Assembly (NCBI GenBank): GCA_024400115.1
Contig: JAKSNF010000007.1
Span: 1-64,000, forward strand
Source: Paludibacteraceae bacterium
GTDB lineage: Bacteria; Bacteroidota; Bacteroidia; Bacteroidales; Paludibacteraceae
DNA: 64,000 nt
Direction of reading: 5' to 3'
The position numbers and the translations under genes are program-made. This document shows positions 3,975 to 37,284 of the stretch, piece by piece. How positions within the stretch are numbered: position 1 is the first letter of the stretch; the number at the start of each line of letters is the position of its first letter. The notes beneath the pieces are model-generated. The model did no database searches. It was given only the letters and a program-made list of their open reading frames with translations, and was not told the origin of the DNA.

Positions 3975-4010
3975 CCACAATCCACTATCCACCATCCACC
4001 ATCCACCAAC
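3975..4010. repeat. Period-7 CCAnnAT tract between genes
   Basis: The whole 36-bp gap between the stop at 3974 and the ATG at 4011 consists of heptamers of the form CCACAAT / CCACTAT / CCACCAT. The same unit is found inside recF (7765-7798) and the GlcD-GlcF gene (54488-54522). Confidence 0.8.
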
Positions 4011-5186
4011 ATGCGTCGTCTCCTAACTATCATCCTTTTAGCTAGTAGCCTCTCCGCCTATAGGCTGTATGCAGCCGAGCCTCTCCACCTCTCCGCCTCT
4101 CAGCCTCGTTTTTGCGGTGCTTGGGTGGCAACGGTGGCGAATATTGATTGGCCTCGACCCAATACGGTAGGCAATCCGGCACAACAGGAAACCGACCTTG
4201 TTAACCTCATTGACTCGCTCTCTGCTTTAGGGGTCAACGCTCTTGTTTTTCAAGTCCGTCCTACGGCAGATGCGCTCTATCAATCTTCCCTCGAACCCGT
4301 CAGCCATTGGCTCACCGGGGAACAGTCAACTCTAAACTCTAAACTCTCCACTCTAAACTATTTCGATCCTTTAGCTGTCGCACTGCGCGAAGCGCATAAG
4401 CGGCATATGGAGGTACATGCGTGGCTCAATCCTTTCCGCGTGAATATCAACTCCATGACTAAGGACGTGCTCTGTCCCGACCATGTTTTTTATCGCCATC
4501 CCGAGTGGTTCTGGAAGTACGGAGAGCAGTGGTATTTCGACCCGGGACTGCAAGAGACGCGCGATTGGATATGCGCTGTAGTGAAGGACATCATCACGCA
4601 TTATGACGTAGATGCCATCCACATGGATGACTATTTCTATCCCTATCCCATAGCAGGGCAGACGCTGCCGGACAAGCAGACTTTCCTTACGCATGCCCGT
4701 GGCTTTAACGATATAGAGGATTGGAGACGAGATAATGTCAACCTCACCATTGAGCAGATAAGTGCCACTATTCGTTCTACGCGCCCTCAAGTGCAATTCG
4801 GTATATCGCCCTTTGGTATCAATGCCACCAATTATAATAGCCTTTATGCCGACATCCTCTTGTGGGCAGAGAAGGGGTGGATAGACTATGTCATTCCCCA
4901 ACTCTATTGGCCGATTGACTCTAACTCCCCCAATACCGACTATGCCACATTGGCGGCTTGGTGGGCGAAGCAATTAGAGCCATATAAGACGGCTCTTTAT
5001 ACGGGTCATGCCGTTTACAGAATGAAAAGCGGTAAGGCGAATAATCCGTGGCAGCTGGGTGATGAACTAATTAGGCAGCGACTTGTTAATAAGTCACTGC
5101 CTAAAATCACCGGTGAGTGCTACTATTCAGCACATCACGTCTTTAATTATCCAAACGTATTTCTTACGCCGTTATTTACTTATTGA
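4011..5186 (+). CDS. Secreted GHL10-type glycosidase-like protein (YngK/DUF187 family)
   Basis: Predicted periplasmic or surface protein of the glycosyl-hydrolase-like family 10 (YngK), thought to act on a glycan; the true substrate is unknown. A signal peptide ends near AAEP (residue 22). Conserved features: GAWVATVANIDWP, VNALVFQVRPTADALY, HAWLNPFRVN, a HMDDYFYP segment with candidate catalytic acids, and WIDYVIPQLYW. Its 391 aa is near the family size. Between residues 105 and 118 an STLNSKLSTLN peptide, encoded by a heptamer tract, replaces the usual short loop before FDPLAVALREAHKR. The gene is the last of the left cluster and overlaps the stop of the convergent GGGtGRT gene by 11 bp. 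Confidence 0.85.
   Translation: MRRLLTIILLASSLSAYRLYAAEPLHLSASQPRFCGAWVATVANIDWPRPNTVGNPAQQETDLVNLIDSLSALGVNALVFQVRPTADALYQSSLEPVSHWLTGEQSTLNSKLSTLNYFDPLAVALREAHKRHMEVHAWLNPFRVNINSMTKDVLCPDHVFYRHPEWFWKYGEQWYFDPGLQETRDWICAVVKDIITHYDVDAIHMDDYFYPYPIAGQTLPDKQTFLTHARGFNDIEDWRRDNVNLTIEQISATIRSTRPQVQFGISPFGINATNYNSLYADILLWAEKGWIDYVIPQLYWPIDSNSPNTDYATLAAWWAKQLEPYKTALYTGHAVYRMKSGKANNPWQLGDELIRQRLVNKSLPKITGECYYSAHHVFNYPNVFLTPLFTY
4327..4360 (+). repeat. In-frame period-7 ACTCTAA tract inside the GHL10 gene
   Basis: About five heptamers (ACTCTAA, ACTCTAA, ACTCTCC, ACTCTAA) encode STLNSKLSTLN. The same DNA and peptide occur in msbA, the GT2 gene and the SpoIID-like gene. Confidence 0.85.
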
Positions 5187-6186
5187 GAGCTAACGCCACA
5201 TTAACGGCGCAAGCTACGGTGCAACCTACCATCGGGTTATTACCGATACCGAGGAAGCCCATCATCTCTACGTGTGCCGGAACGGAAGAACTACCTGCGA
5301 ACTGAGCGTCGCTATGCATACGACCCATGGTGTCCGTCATACCGTAAGAAGCGGGACCGGCAGCCATGTTATCGGGGTGCAAGGTACGACCTGTACCGCC
5401 ACCGGAAGCTACGCTGAAGTAAGGCTTACCGGCAAGGATACGCTCTTTCTTATACGTACCTGCAACGGGGTGCTGGAAGCGGGTGGGGTTGGTGGAGTTA
5501 CCGGTGATGGATACATCCACGTTCTCGTGCCACAGGATAGCTACACCCTCACGTACATCGTCTGCACCATAGCAGTTCACTTTAGCGCGAGGACCGTTGC
5601 TATAAGCCTTGGTCTTAACCACGTTCAGTTTACCCGTGAAGTAATCAAACTCCGTTTGTACATAGGTAAAACCGTTGATACGGCTGATGATCATAGCAGC
5701 GTCTTTTCCCAGACCATCGAGGATGATACGAAGCGGTTTTTGACGAACCTTATTCGCCATCTCGGCAATCTTAATAGCGCCTTCAGCAGCTGCGAAAGAC
5801 TCGTGACCGGCAAGGAAAGCAAAGCACTCCGTCTCCTCACGGAGCAGACGAGCAGCTAAGTTACCATGACCGATACCAACCTTACGGTCGTCAGCTACCG
5901 AACCCGGGATACAGAAGGCTTGCAGACCAATACCGATAGCTTCGGCAGCGTCAGCAGCGTTCTTGCAACCTTTCTTCAGGGCAATAGCGGAACCTACAAC
6001 ATAAGCCCACTTAGCGTTCTCAAAGCAGATACGCTGTGTCTCTTCGCAAGTGATATACGGATCGAGACCGTATTGCTCGCAAATCTCGTTGGCTTCTTCT
6101 ATACTCTTAATGCCGTTGGCATTCAATGCGGCGAGAATCTGTTTCTCGCGGCGGTCTTGCGACTCAAATTGTACGGGACGAATCAT
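5176..6186 (-). CDS. GGGtGRT family protein
   Basis: A member of the GGGtGRT family, a conserved anaerobe family of unknown biochemical role, named for the motif seen here as SGGGTGRTLHPD at about residues 262-273. No signal peptide; probably cytoplasmic. It has scattered cysteines (for example CEQYG, CEETQRIC, and CTVACAV near the C-terminus) and a conserved-looking GHGNLAARLL stretch. At 336 aa it is of family size. It follows the NifU-like gene by 3 bp, the usual arrangement for this family, so the two probably act together, possibly in Fe-S or electron-transfer chemistry (inference). It shares one long leader and promoter with the upstream gene. Confidence 0.88.
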   Translation of the reverse strand: MIRPVQFESQDRREKQILAALNANGIKSIEEANEICEQYGLDPYITCEETQRICFENAKWAYVVGSAIALKKGCKNAADAAEAIGIGLQAFCIPGSVADDRKVGIGHGNLAARLLREETECFAFLAGHESFAAAEGAIKIAEMANKVRQKPLRIILDGLGKDAAMIISRINGFTYVQTEFDYFTGKLNVVKTKAYSNGPRAKVNCYGADDVREGVAILWHENVDVSITGNSTNPTRFQHPVAGTYKKERILAGKPYFSVASGGGTGRTLHPDNMAAGPASYGMTDTMGRMHSDAQFAGSSSVPAHVEMMGFLGIGNNPMVGCTVACAVNVALALNK

Positions 6187-6189
6187 AAC

Positions 6190-6891
6190 TTACTCCTTTC
6201 TTGGGTCAATAGATTTAACGGCACCTTGCTCTTTGGTCGTACGACCATAAGTTCCGGTTACTTGTTTCAATGCCTCGTCAGCAGGCACACCTTTCTTAAT
6301 TGCGTCCATGAACTTGCCCATATGAACATATTCATAACCGCAGATCTCGTTATCCTCATCCAAGTACTCCTTGGTGATATAACCTTCGGTCAGTTGGAGG
6401 TAACGCGGACCCTTCACCTTAGTGGAGTAGAGCGTTCCTACTTGAGAAACGAGGCCTTTACCGAGGTCTTCCAAACCGGCACCAATCGTCAAACCGCCCT
6501 CCGAGAAAGCGGATTGAGTACGACCGTAAACGATTTGCAAGAAGAGCTCACGCATAGCCGTGTTGATAGCGTCGCAAACGAGGTCTGTATTGAGTGCCTC
6601 AAGCAGCGTCTTACCCGGCAGAATCTCAGCAGCCATAGCGGCACTGTGGGTCATACCCGAGCAACCGATGGTCTCTACCAGAGCTTCCTCGATGATACCG
6701 TCTTTAACGTTCAAACTCAGTTTGCACGCACCTTGTTGAGGAGCGCACCAACCAATACCGTGGGTCATACCCGAGATGTCTTTAATCTCTTTGGCTTTTA
6801 CCCACTTACCCTCTTCAGGGATTGGAGCCGGTCCGTGATGAGGACCTTTGGCTACAGAACACATGTTCTGCACTTCCTTTGAGTAAATCAT
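6190..6891 (-). CDS. NifU-like iron-sulfur scaffold protein paired with GGGtGRT
   Basis: Resembles the N-terminal half of NifU/IscU Fe-S assembly scaffolds: GWCAPQQGACKL near residue 48, IGCSGMTHSAAMAAEILPGK near 75, and LVCDAI near 103 supply the three expected cysteine regions. It is longer (233 aa) than IscU, with an added C-terminal part (LTEGYITKEYLDEDNEICGYEY) that is specific to the GGGtGRT-linked version. ATG 6891 is used; an internal ATG at 6864 (MCSVAKG) is an alternative. First gene of the leftward two-gene operon, preceded by an unusually long noncoding stretch. Confidence 0.82.
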   Translation of the reverse strand: MIYSKEVQNMCSVAKGPHHGPAPIPEEGKWVKAKEIKDISGMTHGIGWCAPQQGACKLSLNVKDGIIEEALVETIGCSGMTHSAAMAAEILPGKTLLEALNTDLVCDAINTAMRELFLQIVYGRTQSAFSEGGLTIGAGLEDLGKGLVSQVGTLYSTKVKGPRYLQLTEGYITKEYLDEDNEICGYEYVHMGKFMDAIKKGVPADEALKQVTGTYGRTTKEQGAVKSIDPRKE

Positions 6892-6940
6892 TGTTGTATA
6901 AATGTTTAATGTTTGGTTTAATTTTTCTTTGGTTGTTTTT

Positions 6941-7402
6941 TCTCCCGCTCACTCGCTTTGCTCGTTATTACGCTACGCCTTCGGCTATTTGCTGCCATGG
7001 CTATAAGCCTCGCTTTATGCTTTTATTCCGGGCGGCTAAAGCACGCCCTATGCTCGTCGAGTGGGCTTCACAAGATGTCAAAGTTCAACTTTGACAGGGT
7101 TGTTTCAGCCCCCTCTCCTTAATTACACAAATAAGATATGCTTCGTCTGCACCTCTCTGCCTCTCGCCTCTAACCAGCAGTAGGCACTTGCACCGTCCTC
7201 TCACCTATCTGCAACACTTGCATCCGCGTAATTGAGGAGAACGAGGCGAAAGGCACCCCTAGGCTTGCGGGGCAAGGCTATCGTGCTGAGCCTTGTTCGA
7301 CGGGCAAAGCGTGTGCTTTAGCCACGCAGAATAAAGCAATTTTAGTGCGGACTATGGGCTGACGCGTAATTTGCGTAATAAGCCGATAGGCTGAGCGGGA
7401 GA
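6941..7402. repeat. Large imperfect inverted repeat in a 651-bp noncoding region; candidate structured RNA leader
   Basis: This is the only gene-free stretch over 300 bp (6892-7542). The left arm (about 6941-7126) and right arm (about 7228-7402) are imperfect inverted copies. Matching blocks include TCTCCCGCTCA with TGAGCGGGAGA at the ends, GCTAAAGCAC with GTGCTTTAGC in the middle, and CTCCTTAATTA with TAATTGAGGAG inside, around a loop of about 100 nt. Smaller hairpins are nested (GGGCGGCTAAAGCACGCCC; GTCAAAGTTCAACTTTGAC). A leftward promoter at 7460-7490 would transcribe the whole structure as a 5' leader of the NifU-like/GGGtGRT operon or as a separate RNA. No known riboswitch, RNase P, tmRNA or SRP signature was recognised. 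Arm ends are approximate. Confidence 0.65.
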
Positions 7403-7459
7403 CTAAAAATCTCGCAATCTTTTACCTCTTTGTTCTCGACTCCTCGAGATTTCGCGCTG

Positions 7460-7490
7460 CAAAGTTACGCTTTTTTTTTGACTTATGCAA
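7460..7490 (-). promoter_or_regulatory. Leftward Bacteroidota-type promoter for the NifU-like/GGGtGRT operon
   Basis: On the minus strand, TAACTTTG (complement of 7460-7467) is the -7 box and TTG (complement of 7488-7490) the -33 box, with 20 bp between and an A-tract in the spacer. Transcription would begin near 7455, about 560 nt before the ATG at 6891. Confidence 0.8.
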
Positions 7491-7506
7491 GAAAAAGACA
7501 AAAATA

Positions 7507-7538
7507 TTTGCATATTTGCGTAAAAAGTTGTAACTTTG
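7507..7538 (+). promoter_or_regulatory. Rightward promoter for recF, back to back with the leftward one
   Basis: TTTG at 7507-7510, a 20-bp spacer and TAACTTTG at 7531-7538. The expected start of transcription (about 5 nt after the box) falls on or next to the GTG start codon of recF at 7543, which implies a leaderless mRNA. Confidence 0.85.
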
Positions 7539-7542
7539 CACC

Positions 7543-8661
7543 GTGATTTTGTCCGAACTCAATATATTGAACTATCGCAACATACGCGATGCCTCTTTAT
7601 CCTTCTCGGATAAACTGAATTGTTTTGTGGGGCTCAACGGTCAAGGTAAAACGAATCTCTTGGACGCTATCTACCTCCTTTCGTTTACCAAATCAGCCCT
7701 CTCGCCTACTGATAGTCAAAATATCACCCACGGCGAGGAACTCGCTATGGTTCGTGGCACCTATCTACCATCCACAATCCACAATCCACAATCCACAGAA
7801 ATTATAACTTGTGGCTTGAAGAAAGGCGTGAAGAAACAGTTCCGTCGGGGAGATAAGGATTATAAGCGGTTACTGGATCATATAGGTCTTATTCCGCTGG
7901 TGATGGTCTGTCCTGAGGATGGCGAACTCATTGCCGAAGGTAGTGACGAGCGCCGCCGTTTCTTGGATGTGGTCATTGCGCAATACAATAAACCCTATTT
8001 GGAGACGCTGACACGCTATAATGCCCTTCTTAAACAGCGTAATGCTTTGCTCAAATCTTTAGAGGAACCCCCTACACCTCTACCCCCCTACACCTCTACT
8101 CCCAATGTCGATTTATTGGCTACTTTTGAGGTACAGATGGTGCCGCTGGCGGAGCAGATATACCAAGAGCGGACGGCTTTTGTGGAGCGTTTTATTCCGC
8201 TTTTCCAGGAGATATACAACGAACTGAGCGATGGGCAAGAGACGGTTAGTTTGCGTTATATCAGTCAGTTACAGGACCGTAATTTGGCGGAGGCGTACGA
8301 GCGTACGCGTCAGCGCGATGTGATTCTTGGTTGGACGTCGCAAGGCATTCATAAGGACGAATTAGAGATGCTCTTGGACGGTTATCCGCTCAAGCGGGTA
8401 GGGAGTCAGGGGCAGCAAAAGACCTATCTGCTTGCCATGAAACTGGCACAAGCGGTTAGTTTGGGTAAACCGATCTTATTGTTGGACGATATATTTGATA
8501 AACTGGATGCAGAGCGTGTAGCGCGTATCATTCGTTTGGTTAAGTCCAATCGTTTTGGTCAAATTTTTATCACGGACACCGACCGCCAGCACCTCACCGA
8601 CCTCTTGCAACCCGATGAACAAACGAGAGTCTTCCTTGTAGAAGGAGGAAATGTAAAATAA
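7543..8661 (+). CDS. recF: DNA replication/repair ATPase RecF
   Basis: SMC-like ATPase that loads RecA at single-strand gaps in recombinational repair. The Walker A motif is GLNGQGKTNLLDA (about residues 29-41), the signature motif is in the GSQGQQKTYLLAMKLAQA region and Walker B is PILLLDDIFDKLD. The GTG start at 7543 gives the canonical N-terminus (MILSELNILNYRNI) and there is no room for a leader. Two loop insertions encoded by low-complexity tracts are visible: LPSTIHNPQST (about residues 76-86) and PPTPLPPYTSTPN (about 176-188). The other RecF features look intact, so the protein is probably functional. The response regulator gene starts 4 bp downstream. Confidence 0.95.
   Translation: MILSELNILNYRNIRDASLSFSDKLNCFVGLNGQGKTNLLDAIYLLSFTKSALSPTDSQNITHGEELAMVRGTYLPSTIHNPQSTEIITCGLKKGVKKQFRRGDKDYKRLLDHIGLIPLVMVCPEDGELIAEGSDERRRFLDVVIAQYNKPYLETLTRYNALLKQRNALLKSLEEPPTPLPPYTSTPNVDLLATFEVQMVPLAEQIYQERTAFVERFIPLFQEIYNELSDGQETVSLRYISQLQDRNLAEAYERTRQRDVILGWTSQGIHKDELEMLLDGYPLKRVGSQGQQKTYLLAMKLAQAVSLGKPILLLDDIFDKLDAERVARIIRLVKSNRFGQIFITDTDRQHLTDLLQPDEQTRVFLVEGGNVK
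7765..7798 (+). repeat. In-frame CCACAAT heptamer tract in recF
   Basis: About four tandem heptamers (TCCACAA) encode STIHNPQST within a beta-hairpin loop region of RecF. A near-identical peptide (STILHPQST) is encoded in the GlcD-GlcF gene at 54488-54522. Confidence 0.85.
8070..8104 (+). repeat. In-frame CTACCCC-type tract in recF
   Basis: Two copies of a CCCCCTACACCTCTA unit, 16 bp apart, encode PTPLPPYTSTP. The antisense strand of valS at 38654-38692 carries a closely similar tract that encodes LPPYSSTP in ValS. Confidence 0.8.
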
Positions 8662-33123: not shown

Positions 33124-33197
33124 ACTTGTTAACTTTAAAACTTCTTTCAACTTTCAACTTTCAACTTTCAACTTTCAACTTTAAACTTTCAACTAAA
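33124..33197 (+). repeat. Intergenic CAACTTT heptamer tract before the GT2 gene
   Basis: The whole 74-bp gap between two genes is built of AACTTTC/AACTTTA units (five perfect or near-perfect in a row). It ends directly at the ATG at 33198. The frame is accidentally open through it, giving a spurious longer N-terminus. Confidence 0.9.
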
Positions 33198-36195: not shown

Positions 36196-37284
36196 ATGAC
36201 CATCCGAGTAGGTATAGTAACCGCTCCGCATATTGATTACGAGTTAAGGGAGCATACGTTTGTTCTTCACAACGTGCGTATCGGCATTGGTTTTCATTGG
36301 GACCAAACGGAAGACGAGGAGTTCGAGGGTGAACTGGAGATTCTGCATAACGCAGACGGTACCGAAACGGCGGTCAATATCATTGACCTCGAATCGTATA
36401 TCTCTTGTGTCATTTGTTCGGAGATGTCTGCGGATAGTCCCCTTGAGTTATTGAAAGCGCACGCTGTTATCTCCCGTTCGTGGGTGTTACGCAATATCGG
36501 TCATACGGGGCACGTGGGATATGATGTCTGTGCCGATGACCATTGTCAGCGGTATAATGGTCTCCGTCGCCGCTCTGCTCTCGCCCTTCAAGTCGTTGAA
36601 GAAACGAAAGGTGAAGTACTCATACCTCTAAACTCTAAACTCTCCACTCTAAACTATAAAGATATATGCGATTGTCGCTACCACAAGTGTTGTGGCGGTC
36701 GTACAGAAATATATTCCACTTGTTGGGAGGACAAGGACTATCCCTACCTCCAATCGGTCGAATGCCCCTATTGCCATCCTTCAGCCCGCTCTTATGTCAA
36801 TGATTACGATCGTTCAACTCGCGATTATCACTCTTGGGCGGTGGAGTACACACAGGAGGAGTTGAGTAGGGTAGTAAAAGAGAAGACGGGAGTGGATTTT
36901 GGTTTGATAACGGACATTATCCCGTTGCACCGGGGTGCGAGTGGGCGAATAGATAGGTTAGAGATAGTGGGTACCAAGCATCGGGAGGTGATAGGTAAGG
37001 AACTGCGTATCCGCCAAGCCCTCTCCCCAACGACCCTTTACAGTTCGTGGTTCGAGATTGAAAAACTAACAAACTCTAAACTTCTTAACCAGACGGCTAC
37101 TCTAAACTCTCCACTCTCCACTCTAAACTACCTTTTCCGTTTGAACGGAAAAGGATGGGGTCACGGTGTCGGCTTATGTCAGATAGGCGCTGCTGTGATG
37201 GCTCAGCAGGGCTTCACGTATAAGCAGATCTTGGCTCACTATTATCGCAACACGGAAATCTCGTGTTTTTGCAGAAAAAGTTAG
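36196..37284 (+). CDS. SpoIID/LytB-domain protein
   Basis: Contains the SpoIID core (VNIIDLESYISCVICSEMSADSPLELLKAHAVISRSWVLRNIG split over residues 57-100, then GKGWGHGVGLCQIGAAVMAQQGFTY near the end). In sporulating Firmicutes SpoIID is a lytic transglycosylase; in Bacteroidota homologues the role is unknown, probably in peptidoglycan. Cysteines cluster in CDCRYHKCCGG and CPYC, suggesting metal binding. No signal peptide is visible, which is odd for a wall enzyme. Two heptamer tracts add PLNSKLSTLNY (about residues 146-156) and NSKLLNQTATLNSPLSTLN (about 296-314). Confidence 0.85.
   Translation: MTIRVGIVTAPHIDYELREHTFVLHNVRIGIGFHWDQTEDEEFEGELEILHNADGTETAVNIIDLESYISCVICSEMSADSPLELLKAHAVISRSWVLRNIGHTGHVGYDVCADDHCQRYNGLRRRSALALQVVEETKGEVLIPLNSKLSTLNYKDICDCRYHKCCGGRTEIYSTCWEDKDYPYLQSVECPYCHPSARSYVNDYDRSTRDYHSWAVEYTQEELSRVVKEKTGVDFGLITDIIPLHRGASGRIDRLEIVGTKHREVIGKELRIRQALSPTTLYSSWFEIEKLTNSKLLNQTATLNSPLSTLNYLFRLNGKGWGHGVGLCQIGAAVMAQQGFTYKQILAHYYRNTEISCFCRKS
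36625..36656 (+). repeat. In-frame ACTCTAA tract in the SpoIID-like gene
   Basis: Heptamers ACTCTAA, ACTCTAA, ACTCTCC, ACTCTAA encode LNSKLSTLNY, the same order of units as in the GHL10 gene (4327-4360). Confidence 0.87.
37071..37130 (+). repeat. Second in-frame composite tract in the SpoIID-like gene
   Basis: Carries the AACCAGACGGCT core shared with msbA (31461-31519), flanked by ACTCTAA/ACTCTCC heptamers. Confidence 0.88.

Follow-up and report, generated by a model that had tools for sequence, protein, structure and literature searches.

A dispersed, species-specific hairpin element in the leader of a NifU-like/GGGtGRT operon and its association with GxxExxY nuclease genes

A long inverted repeat lies upstream of a NifU-like/GGGtGRT operon in the genome of a Paludibacteraceae bacterium, and the locus raises the question of whether such a sequence serves the operon as a leader RNA or arrived there as a mobile repeat. 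The window that we analysed (64,000 nucleotides; GCA_024400115.1, contig JAKSNF010000007.1, positions 1 to 64,000) had been inspected earlier from its letters alone, and that original prediction allowed for a new regulatory RNA, a separate noncoding RNA or the remnant of a MITE-like element. We find that the repeat is one of many dispersed copies of a hairpin element confined to this species, and that hairpins of this kind recur around genes for GxxExxY nucleases in many bacterial phyla.

A branched palindrome in an otherwise short leader

The inverted repeat first noticed in the sequence is real, and it is strongly structured both as RNA and as DNA. An inverted-repeat search of the window recovers outer arms of 16 nt (6936-6951/7392-7407) that are 88% complementary, in addition to inner arms of 39 nt (Table 1). 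When folded as RNA, the strand from 6930 to 7420 reaches a minimum free energy (MFE) of -193.5 kcal/mol (z = -6.82), which none of 100 shuffled sequences equals, and the corresponding DNA fold has an MFE of -99.1 (z = -6.21). Taken together, these z-scores place the fold far beyond chance. The two arms had been expected to pair over their length, and this holds for the inverted repeat as such but not for the notion of one plain stem, since the fold is branched and cruciform-like. Likewise, of the extent originally drawn (6892-7542), only 6936-7412 belongs to the element as delimited by its copies in the genome, whereas 6892-6935 and 7413-7542 are ordinary leader and divergent promoter region.

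Read inward, the element consists of the outer stem (TCTCCCGCTC/GAGCGGGAGA), a further stem (TATTACGC/GCGTAATA), the inner arms and then a junction, which bears the left side hairpin, the apical stem (CTCCTTAATTACGCAGAT/ATCCGCGTAATTGAGGAG) with its variable loop, and the right side hairpin; its ends are TCTCCCGC/GCGGGAGA. The cruciform-like fold with outer stem, two side hairpins and looped apical stem is common to the copies, even as their parts vary. The apical loop of the other complete copies ranges from 40 to 261 nt, except in the one that carries a GxxExxY gene (C56:2561-3581), where it reaches 612 nt, and side hairpins of at least three types are swapped between copies, giving a mosaic of modules. 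One copy (L043) reads in the opposite direction. A consensus fold of ten copies predicts 90 pairs, and 24 of these show compensatory double-sided changes. A separate count of pairs without loops, based on nine rows of which two are both strands of one copy, finds standard pairs in 93% of cells and double-sided change in 40 of 86 pairs. Because the aligned copies are paralogues within one genome, this covariation shows that the fold is kept while copies diverge or recombine, and it does not tell RNA and DNA apart.

Table 1. Coordinates of the element, its parts, neighbouring genes and related features (window positions unless a contig or locus is named)
Feature	Position	Strand	Basis or remark
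Entire palindromic element (477 nt), dispersed and without a gene	6936..7412		bounds of matches to about 30 other genome loci; ten-copy alignment
Outer stem, left end, TCTCCCGCTC	6941..6950		kept in 10/10 aligned copies
Outer stem, right end, GAGCGGGAGA	7393..7402		pairs with 6941-6950
Left inner arm	7022..7060		82% complementary to 7297-7335
Right inner arm	7297..7335		inverted-repeat search
Left side hairpin; stems co-vary between copies	7060..7112		DNA z -4.45; covariation
Apical stem, left strand, TCTCCTTAATTACACAAAT	7114..7132		copy comparison, consensus fold
Variable apical loop	7133..7221		copy comparison
Apical stem, right strand, ATCCGCGTAATTGAGGAGA	7222..7240		copy comparison, consensus fold
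Right side hairpin, one of three interchangeable types	7239..7298		DNA z -2.66; copy comparison
Promoter motif TAACTTTGC (TAnnTTTGC, Bacteroidetes-type) of NifU-like/GGGtGRT operon	7459..7467	-	576 nt from ATG at 6891; element between motif and ATG
NifU-N-like protein gene, first gene downstream of element	6190..6891	-	PF01592, E 4.5e-4, just under cut-off
GGGtGRT protein gene	5176..6186	-	PF14057, 626 bits
recF, divergent neighbour	7543..8661	+	PF02463 and sequence
GxxExxY gene	C56:2893-3222		in copy C56:2561-3581
GxxExxY palindromes between methylmalonyl-CoA mutase subunit genes	L105:8961-9416, L087:9202-9630, L204:about 3000-3400		gene names read from sequence
Period-7 tandem arrays	3975-4008, 4328-4359, 7770-7797, 33144-33194, 36626-36660 and others		

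The original prediction also placed a clear promoter upstream of a leader of about 560 nt, and it was right on both counts, as the TAnnTTTGC motif lies 576 nt upstream of the ATG. If the 477 nt of the element are subtracted from this leader, 99 nt remain. Among 41 genus genomes searched, 21 have an orthologue of the NifU-like gene, counting the window's own genome, and wherever the leader of the orthologous operon is readable the distance from TAnnTTTGC to ATG is 55-200 nt, with no structured leader. By these comparisons, the element is an insertion in an otherwise ordinary short leader. The window copy is intergenic, being situated between recF and the NifU-like gene and not inside a 23S rRNA gene. 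On the recF side, a rightward promoter motif TAACTTTGC occupies 7531-7539, with its end 3 nt short of the GTG start codon, and recF may for this reason be transcribed nearly leaderless.

A search of the genome for further copies had been proposed as a check, and it confirms a dispersed repeat: the stretch yields 88 matches at about 30 intergenic places in 2.14 Mb. Several copies lie at contig ends, as is expected of repeats that break assemblies. A survey of neighbours finds the copies between genes and next to unrelated ones, and the apparent overlaps with genes are taken to be spurious, involving short open reading frames (ORFs) that result from simple ORF calling. Among the 20 copies for which both neighbours are cleanly called, 14 are flanked by co-directional genes and the other copies by convergent or divergent pairs, and thus the copies are not specific to leaders. 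Like a MITE, the element is short and dispersed, has terminal inverted repeats and lacks a transposase gene.

The core of the element is specific to the species. With one genome per species, a search of 150 other genomes of the genus returns no match except a marginal one of 45 nt (E 1e-3). The core was searched alone for this purpose because all the matches listed from related genomes for the full 6892-7542 query, which includes the promoter, fell in the promoter region (7450-7542). No target-site duplication is evident, as the flanks of nine complete rows are no more alike than mismatched pairs (3.2 versus 3.0 nt). The side-hairpin motif was not found in viral contigs, nor the core in phage records, and the Y1/RAYT transposase (PF01797) is absent from the three genomes G000, G067 and G069.

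GxxExxY genes and palindromes across genomes

The copy at C56:2561-3581 has the same arms as the window element, and its long apical loop holds a gene for a 126-amino-acid protein of the GxxExxY (TIGR04256)/PDDEXK_3 (PF13366) family of PD-(D/E)XK nucleases (138.7 bits), which is no known transposase. A second GxxExxY gene in this genome is located inside another palindrome, whose arms are 70% identical over 189 columns. The catalytic residues D67, E77 and K79 are invariant in 30 GxxExxY sequences. A structure model of the protein (pLDDT 96) gives its best PDB matches to SSO0001 (4ic1), LHK-Exo, Cas4 and lambda exonuclease, and a sequence search of solved structures finds only 4ic1 (E 0.03). 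These closest solved folds suggest a nuclease of the Cas4/lambda-exonuclease fold type. The nuclease-bearing copy also contains a piece of a second repeat, which we call the B module, and so the gene could have arrived in this copy by nesting.

The association is not peculiar to this genome. We scored an ORF as palindrome-flanked when an inverted repeat of at least 30 bits was found within 300 nt on both sides of it. In the genus, 58% of 38 GxxExxY ORFs satisfy this definition compared with 1.8% of 219 control ORFs taken from those contigs. A scan of many phyla, using one genome per species and a closer set of five GxxExxY sequences (the alignment of 30 being too diverse), finds such repeats at 60% of 73 relatives and at 0.6% of 178 controls. 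The relatives come from Bacteroidota, Verrucomicrobia, Cyanobacteria, Planctomycetes, Deltaproteobacteria and others, and the single control above threshold (L189_1) is an opposite-strand ORF over a GxxExxY gene itself. When pooled and compared with size-matched controls, 66 of 111 GxxExxY loci (59%) are flanked as opposed to 3 of 190 (1.6%), with an odds ratio of 91 and a Fisher p of 2e-32, although these loci are not fully independent, in that at least two occur in both sets (L088/L180, L089/L138) and 19 pairs of loci share arms. A lower-scoring GxxExxY clade is mostly without inverted repeats.

The pattern of one gene and many gene-less copies also recurs. Two other species of the genus (G069 and G067) have a single GxxExxY gene each, the arms of which are repeated without a gene at many other places, and the two species have no arms in common. 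In more distant groups, the arm is multi-copy in eight of ten genomes, while the remaining two yield no matches beyond the pair of arms at the gene itself; the evidence from G172 is weaker, because the joined query also held arms from other loci and some of its matches are to these. An outer-end motif is only about two-fold enriched across phyla, and we claim nothing from it.

Two side observations concern the surroundings of these genes. In three genomes, GxxExxY palindromes are lodged between the two subunit genes of methylmalonyl-CoA mutase (Table 1). The same gap is 5-15 nt in most genomes of the genus and contains long inserts without GxxExxY in several others; it is an insertion hot spot. 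Separately, a GxxExxY gene of G063 (L102, upstream of 9168) adjoins a long tandem array with a unit of about 50 nt, ATAATTRTCGTGTAATTATTCATTAATTCTGCTCTGTGGTGGG, and this unit is also the inverted arm of the gene.

Possible movement of the element and competing explanations

Given the structure of the element, its dispersal and species specificity, its position in a short leader, the copy that carries a nuclease gene and the recurring link between nuclease and palindrome, all of which are observed directly, we consider it reasonably probable that the sequence at 6936-7412 is a gene-less, non-autonomous copy of a hairpin element whose partner, the GxxExxY nuclease, acts as its mover. That the nuclease moves the element, and the manner in which it might do so, we infer. 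Each family would comprise a long palindrome with conserved ends, capable of forming a cruciform or a branched hairpin, usually with one or two copies per genome carrying the small GxxExxY gene in the apical loop and the remaining copies being MITE- or REPIN-like derivatives with unrelated loops. During replication or transcription, the palindrome might extrude as a hairpin. The nuclease most likely would recognise the element once it is folded, in single-stranded or cruciform DNA, and cut either the element or its target, whereupon repair could copy the hairpin into new intergenic sites with template switching between copies, a process from which the module mosaic would follow. In the NifU-like/GGGtGRT operon, the window copy inserted downstream of the promoter and ahead of the first gene, lengthening the leader from roughly 100 to about 576 nt. 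The lack of target-site duplications and the absence of a Y1 transposase argue against standard movement of the insertion sequence or RAYT type. Several observations weigh against our main reading, namely the missing target-site duplications, the low-scoring clade poor in inverted repeats, the piece of B module in the nuclease copy and, as the main reason for caution about the nuclease as mover, the occurrence of IVP genes in similar palindromes.

GxxExxY may indeed be a passenger rather than a mover, which is conceivable precisely because IVP/S23 genes (PF05635) have comparable surroundings. We regard it as rather unlikely that the hairpin is a selfish unit and that GxxExxY genes and the four-helix-bundle genes of the IVP/S23 type are interchangeable passengers that profit from the palindrome, as happens in the intervening sequences of 23S rRNA. 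Movement would then follow another route, such as replication slippage, recombination or the action of a reverse transcriptase on hairpin RNA. In keeping with this, an inverted repeat of at least 30 bits flanks 16 of 30 IVP genes (53%) in 16 genomes but only 2 of 44 controls (4.5%); the same B module flanks an IVP gene (L271) and GxxExxY genes (L047, L031) in the window's own genome; and the Coxiella intervening sequence, a hairpin of 428 nt, has an S23p ORF in its loop (PMC4990558). However, the nuclease fold, its invariant catalytic residues and the presence of one gene with many copies in G067 and G069 are what would be expected of a mobilising enzyme. A quite improbable alternative is an ordinary MITE derived from a DDE insertion sequence, which would be unrelated to GxxExxY and would owe its gene-bearing copy to a chance nested insertion. 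Its dispersed, gene-less, palindromic and intergenic copies are compatible with such an origin, as is the part of another repeat in the gene-bearing copy, but target-site duplications are missing and the link to GxxExxY is seen again in unrelated genomes and phyla, where the arms are unrelated as well.

Least credible by far is a conserved structured leader RNA, either riboswitch-like or an attenuator, that controls the NifU-like/GGGtGRT operon. The strong fold, the co-varying pairs among copies and the position between promoter and first gene would all suit such an RNA, but orthologous operons lack the element, about 30 copies reside beside unrelated genes, and an Rfam search at E<=1 assigns no family, its best hit (E 0.64) being a chance microRNA match far below the gathering score. 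The original prediction had named two observations that would speak against a leader RNA, the lack of a conserved leader upstream of other GGGtGRT operons and the dispersal of the arms in this genome, and both are made here, which contradicts the new regulatory RNA that it proposed. Its suggestion of a MITE-like remnant fares better, as dispersed copies and short orthologous leaders agree with it, although a mere remnant does not account for the nuclease gene in one apical loop or for a link that recurs across phyla. Some cis effect of the element on the operon mRNA is possible.

Relation to known repeats

The element is of a known kind, a hairpin-type dispersed element, and there is a fair chance that it forms a class of its own. 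It resembles the REPIN/RAYT system (PMC3116915) in being dispersed, intergenic, hairpin-forming and genome-specific, with one gene-bearing copy and many without a gene. However, REPs measure 20-40 bp and are linked with a Y1 (HUH) transposase (PMC3116915), whereas the palindromes considered here extend to about 480 nt, no Y1 protein was found in three genomes and the partner is a PD-(D/E)XK nuclease. BrickBuilt of Porphyromonas gingivalis, a MITE of 23-nt tandem minisatellite repeats with small inverted ends and 19 copies (PMC4596501), is likewise a species-specific, intergenic and repeat-built element of a Bacteroidales member. Unlike BrickBuilt, the window element is a long branched palindrome, and 6936-7412 is without a 23-nt tandem minisatellite array.

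The intervening sequence of Coxiella, which also has heptamer repeats beside its ORF (PMC4990558), looks like a relative in kind. It is a hairpin of about 430 nt that ends in inverted repeats, encloses a small ORF in its loop and has short tandem units beside this ORF, and our family shares this plan, although the loop ORF is present through the copy C56:2561-3581 and absent from the window copy. The two differ in that the former resides in 23S rRNA and encodes a four-helix bundle, while the latter is intergenic and encodes a GxxExxY nuclease or nothing.

In the open-licence papers searched, of which two touch on GxxExxY, one on PF13366 and none on PDDEXK_3, we found neither a description of the link between GxxExxY and palindromes nor a role for GxxExxY. 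Most of the GxxExxY genes examined sit in palindromes that are usually dispersed without a gene in the same genome, and this provides the family with a testable role. The link also supplies a shared explanation for repeats that have been puzzling in many genomes, and it places the intervening sequences of 23S rRNA in a possible evolutionary setting. For the NifU-like/GGGtGRT operon, it removes the false lead of a special conserved leader. We put forward only tentatively, as a proposal that is plausible and yet somewhat doubtful, that these hairpins constitute a broad and apparently undescribed class of mobile DNA in many phyla. In such a class, a small loop-encoded GxxExxY nuclease with the PD-(D/E)XK fold of Cas4 would propagate its own palindrome together with copies that lack the gene, the role that HUH transposases have for REPINs. 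The intervening sequences of 23S rRNA would then form a sister branch, with a four-helix-bundle protein as the partner.

Short tandem units are seen in other settings as well. Genes of the 23S_rRNA_IVP type (PF05635) occur outside rRNA inside palindromes of such units (L265-L294, for example L269, L274, L280 and L289), and the example from the window's own genome is L271 (C9:37716-38030). The window itself contains many tandem arrays of period 7 (CCACCAT, AACTCTA, ATCCACA, CTTTCAA and CTCTAAA; Table 1), some of them inside coding genes. Four units of ATCCACA (7770-7797) fall within the recF reading frame, and the same heptamer is also found inside an lpxB-like ORF at L047.
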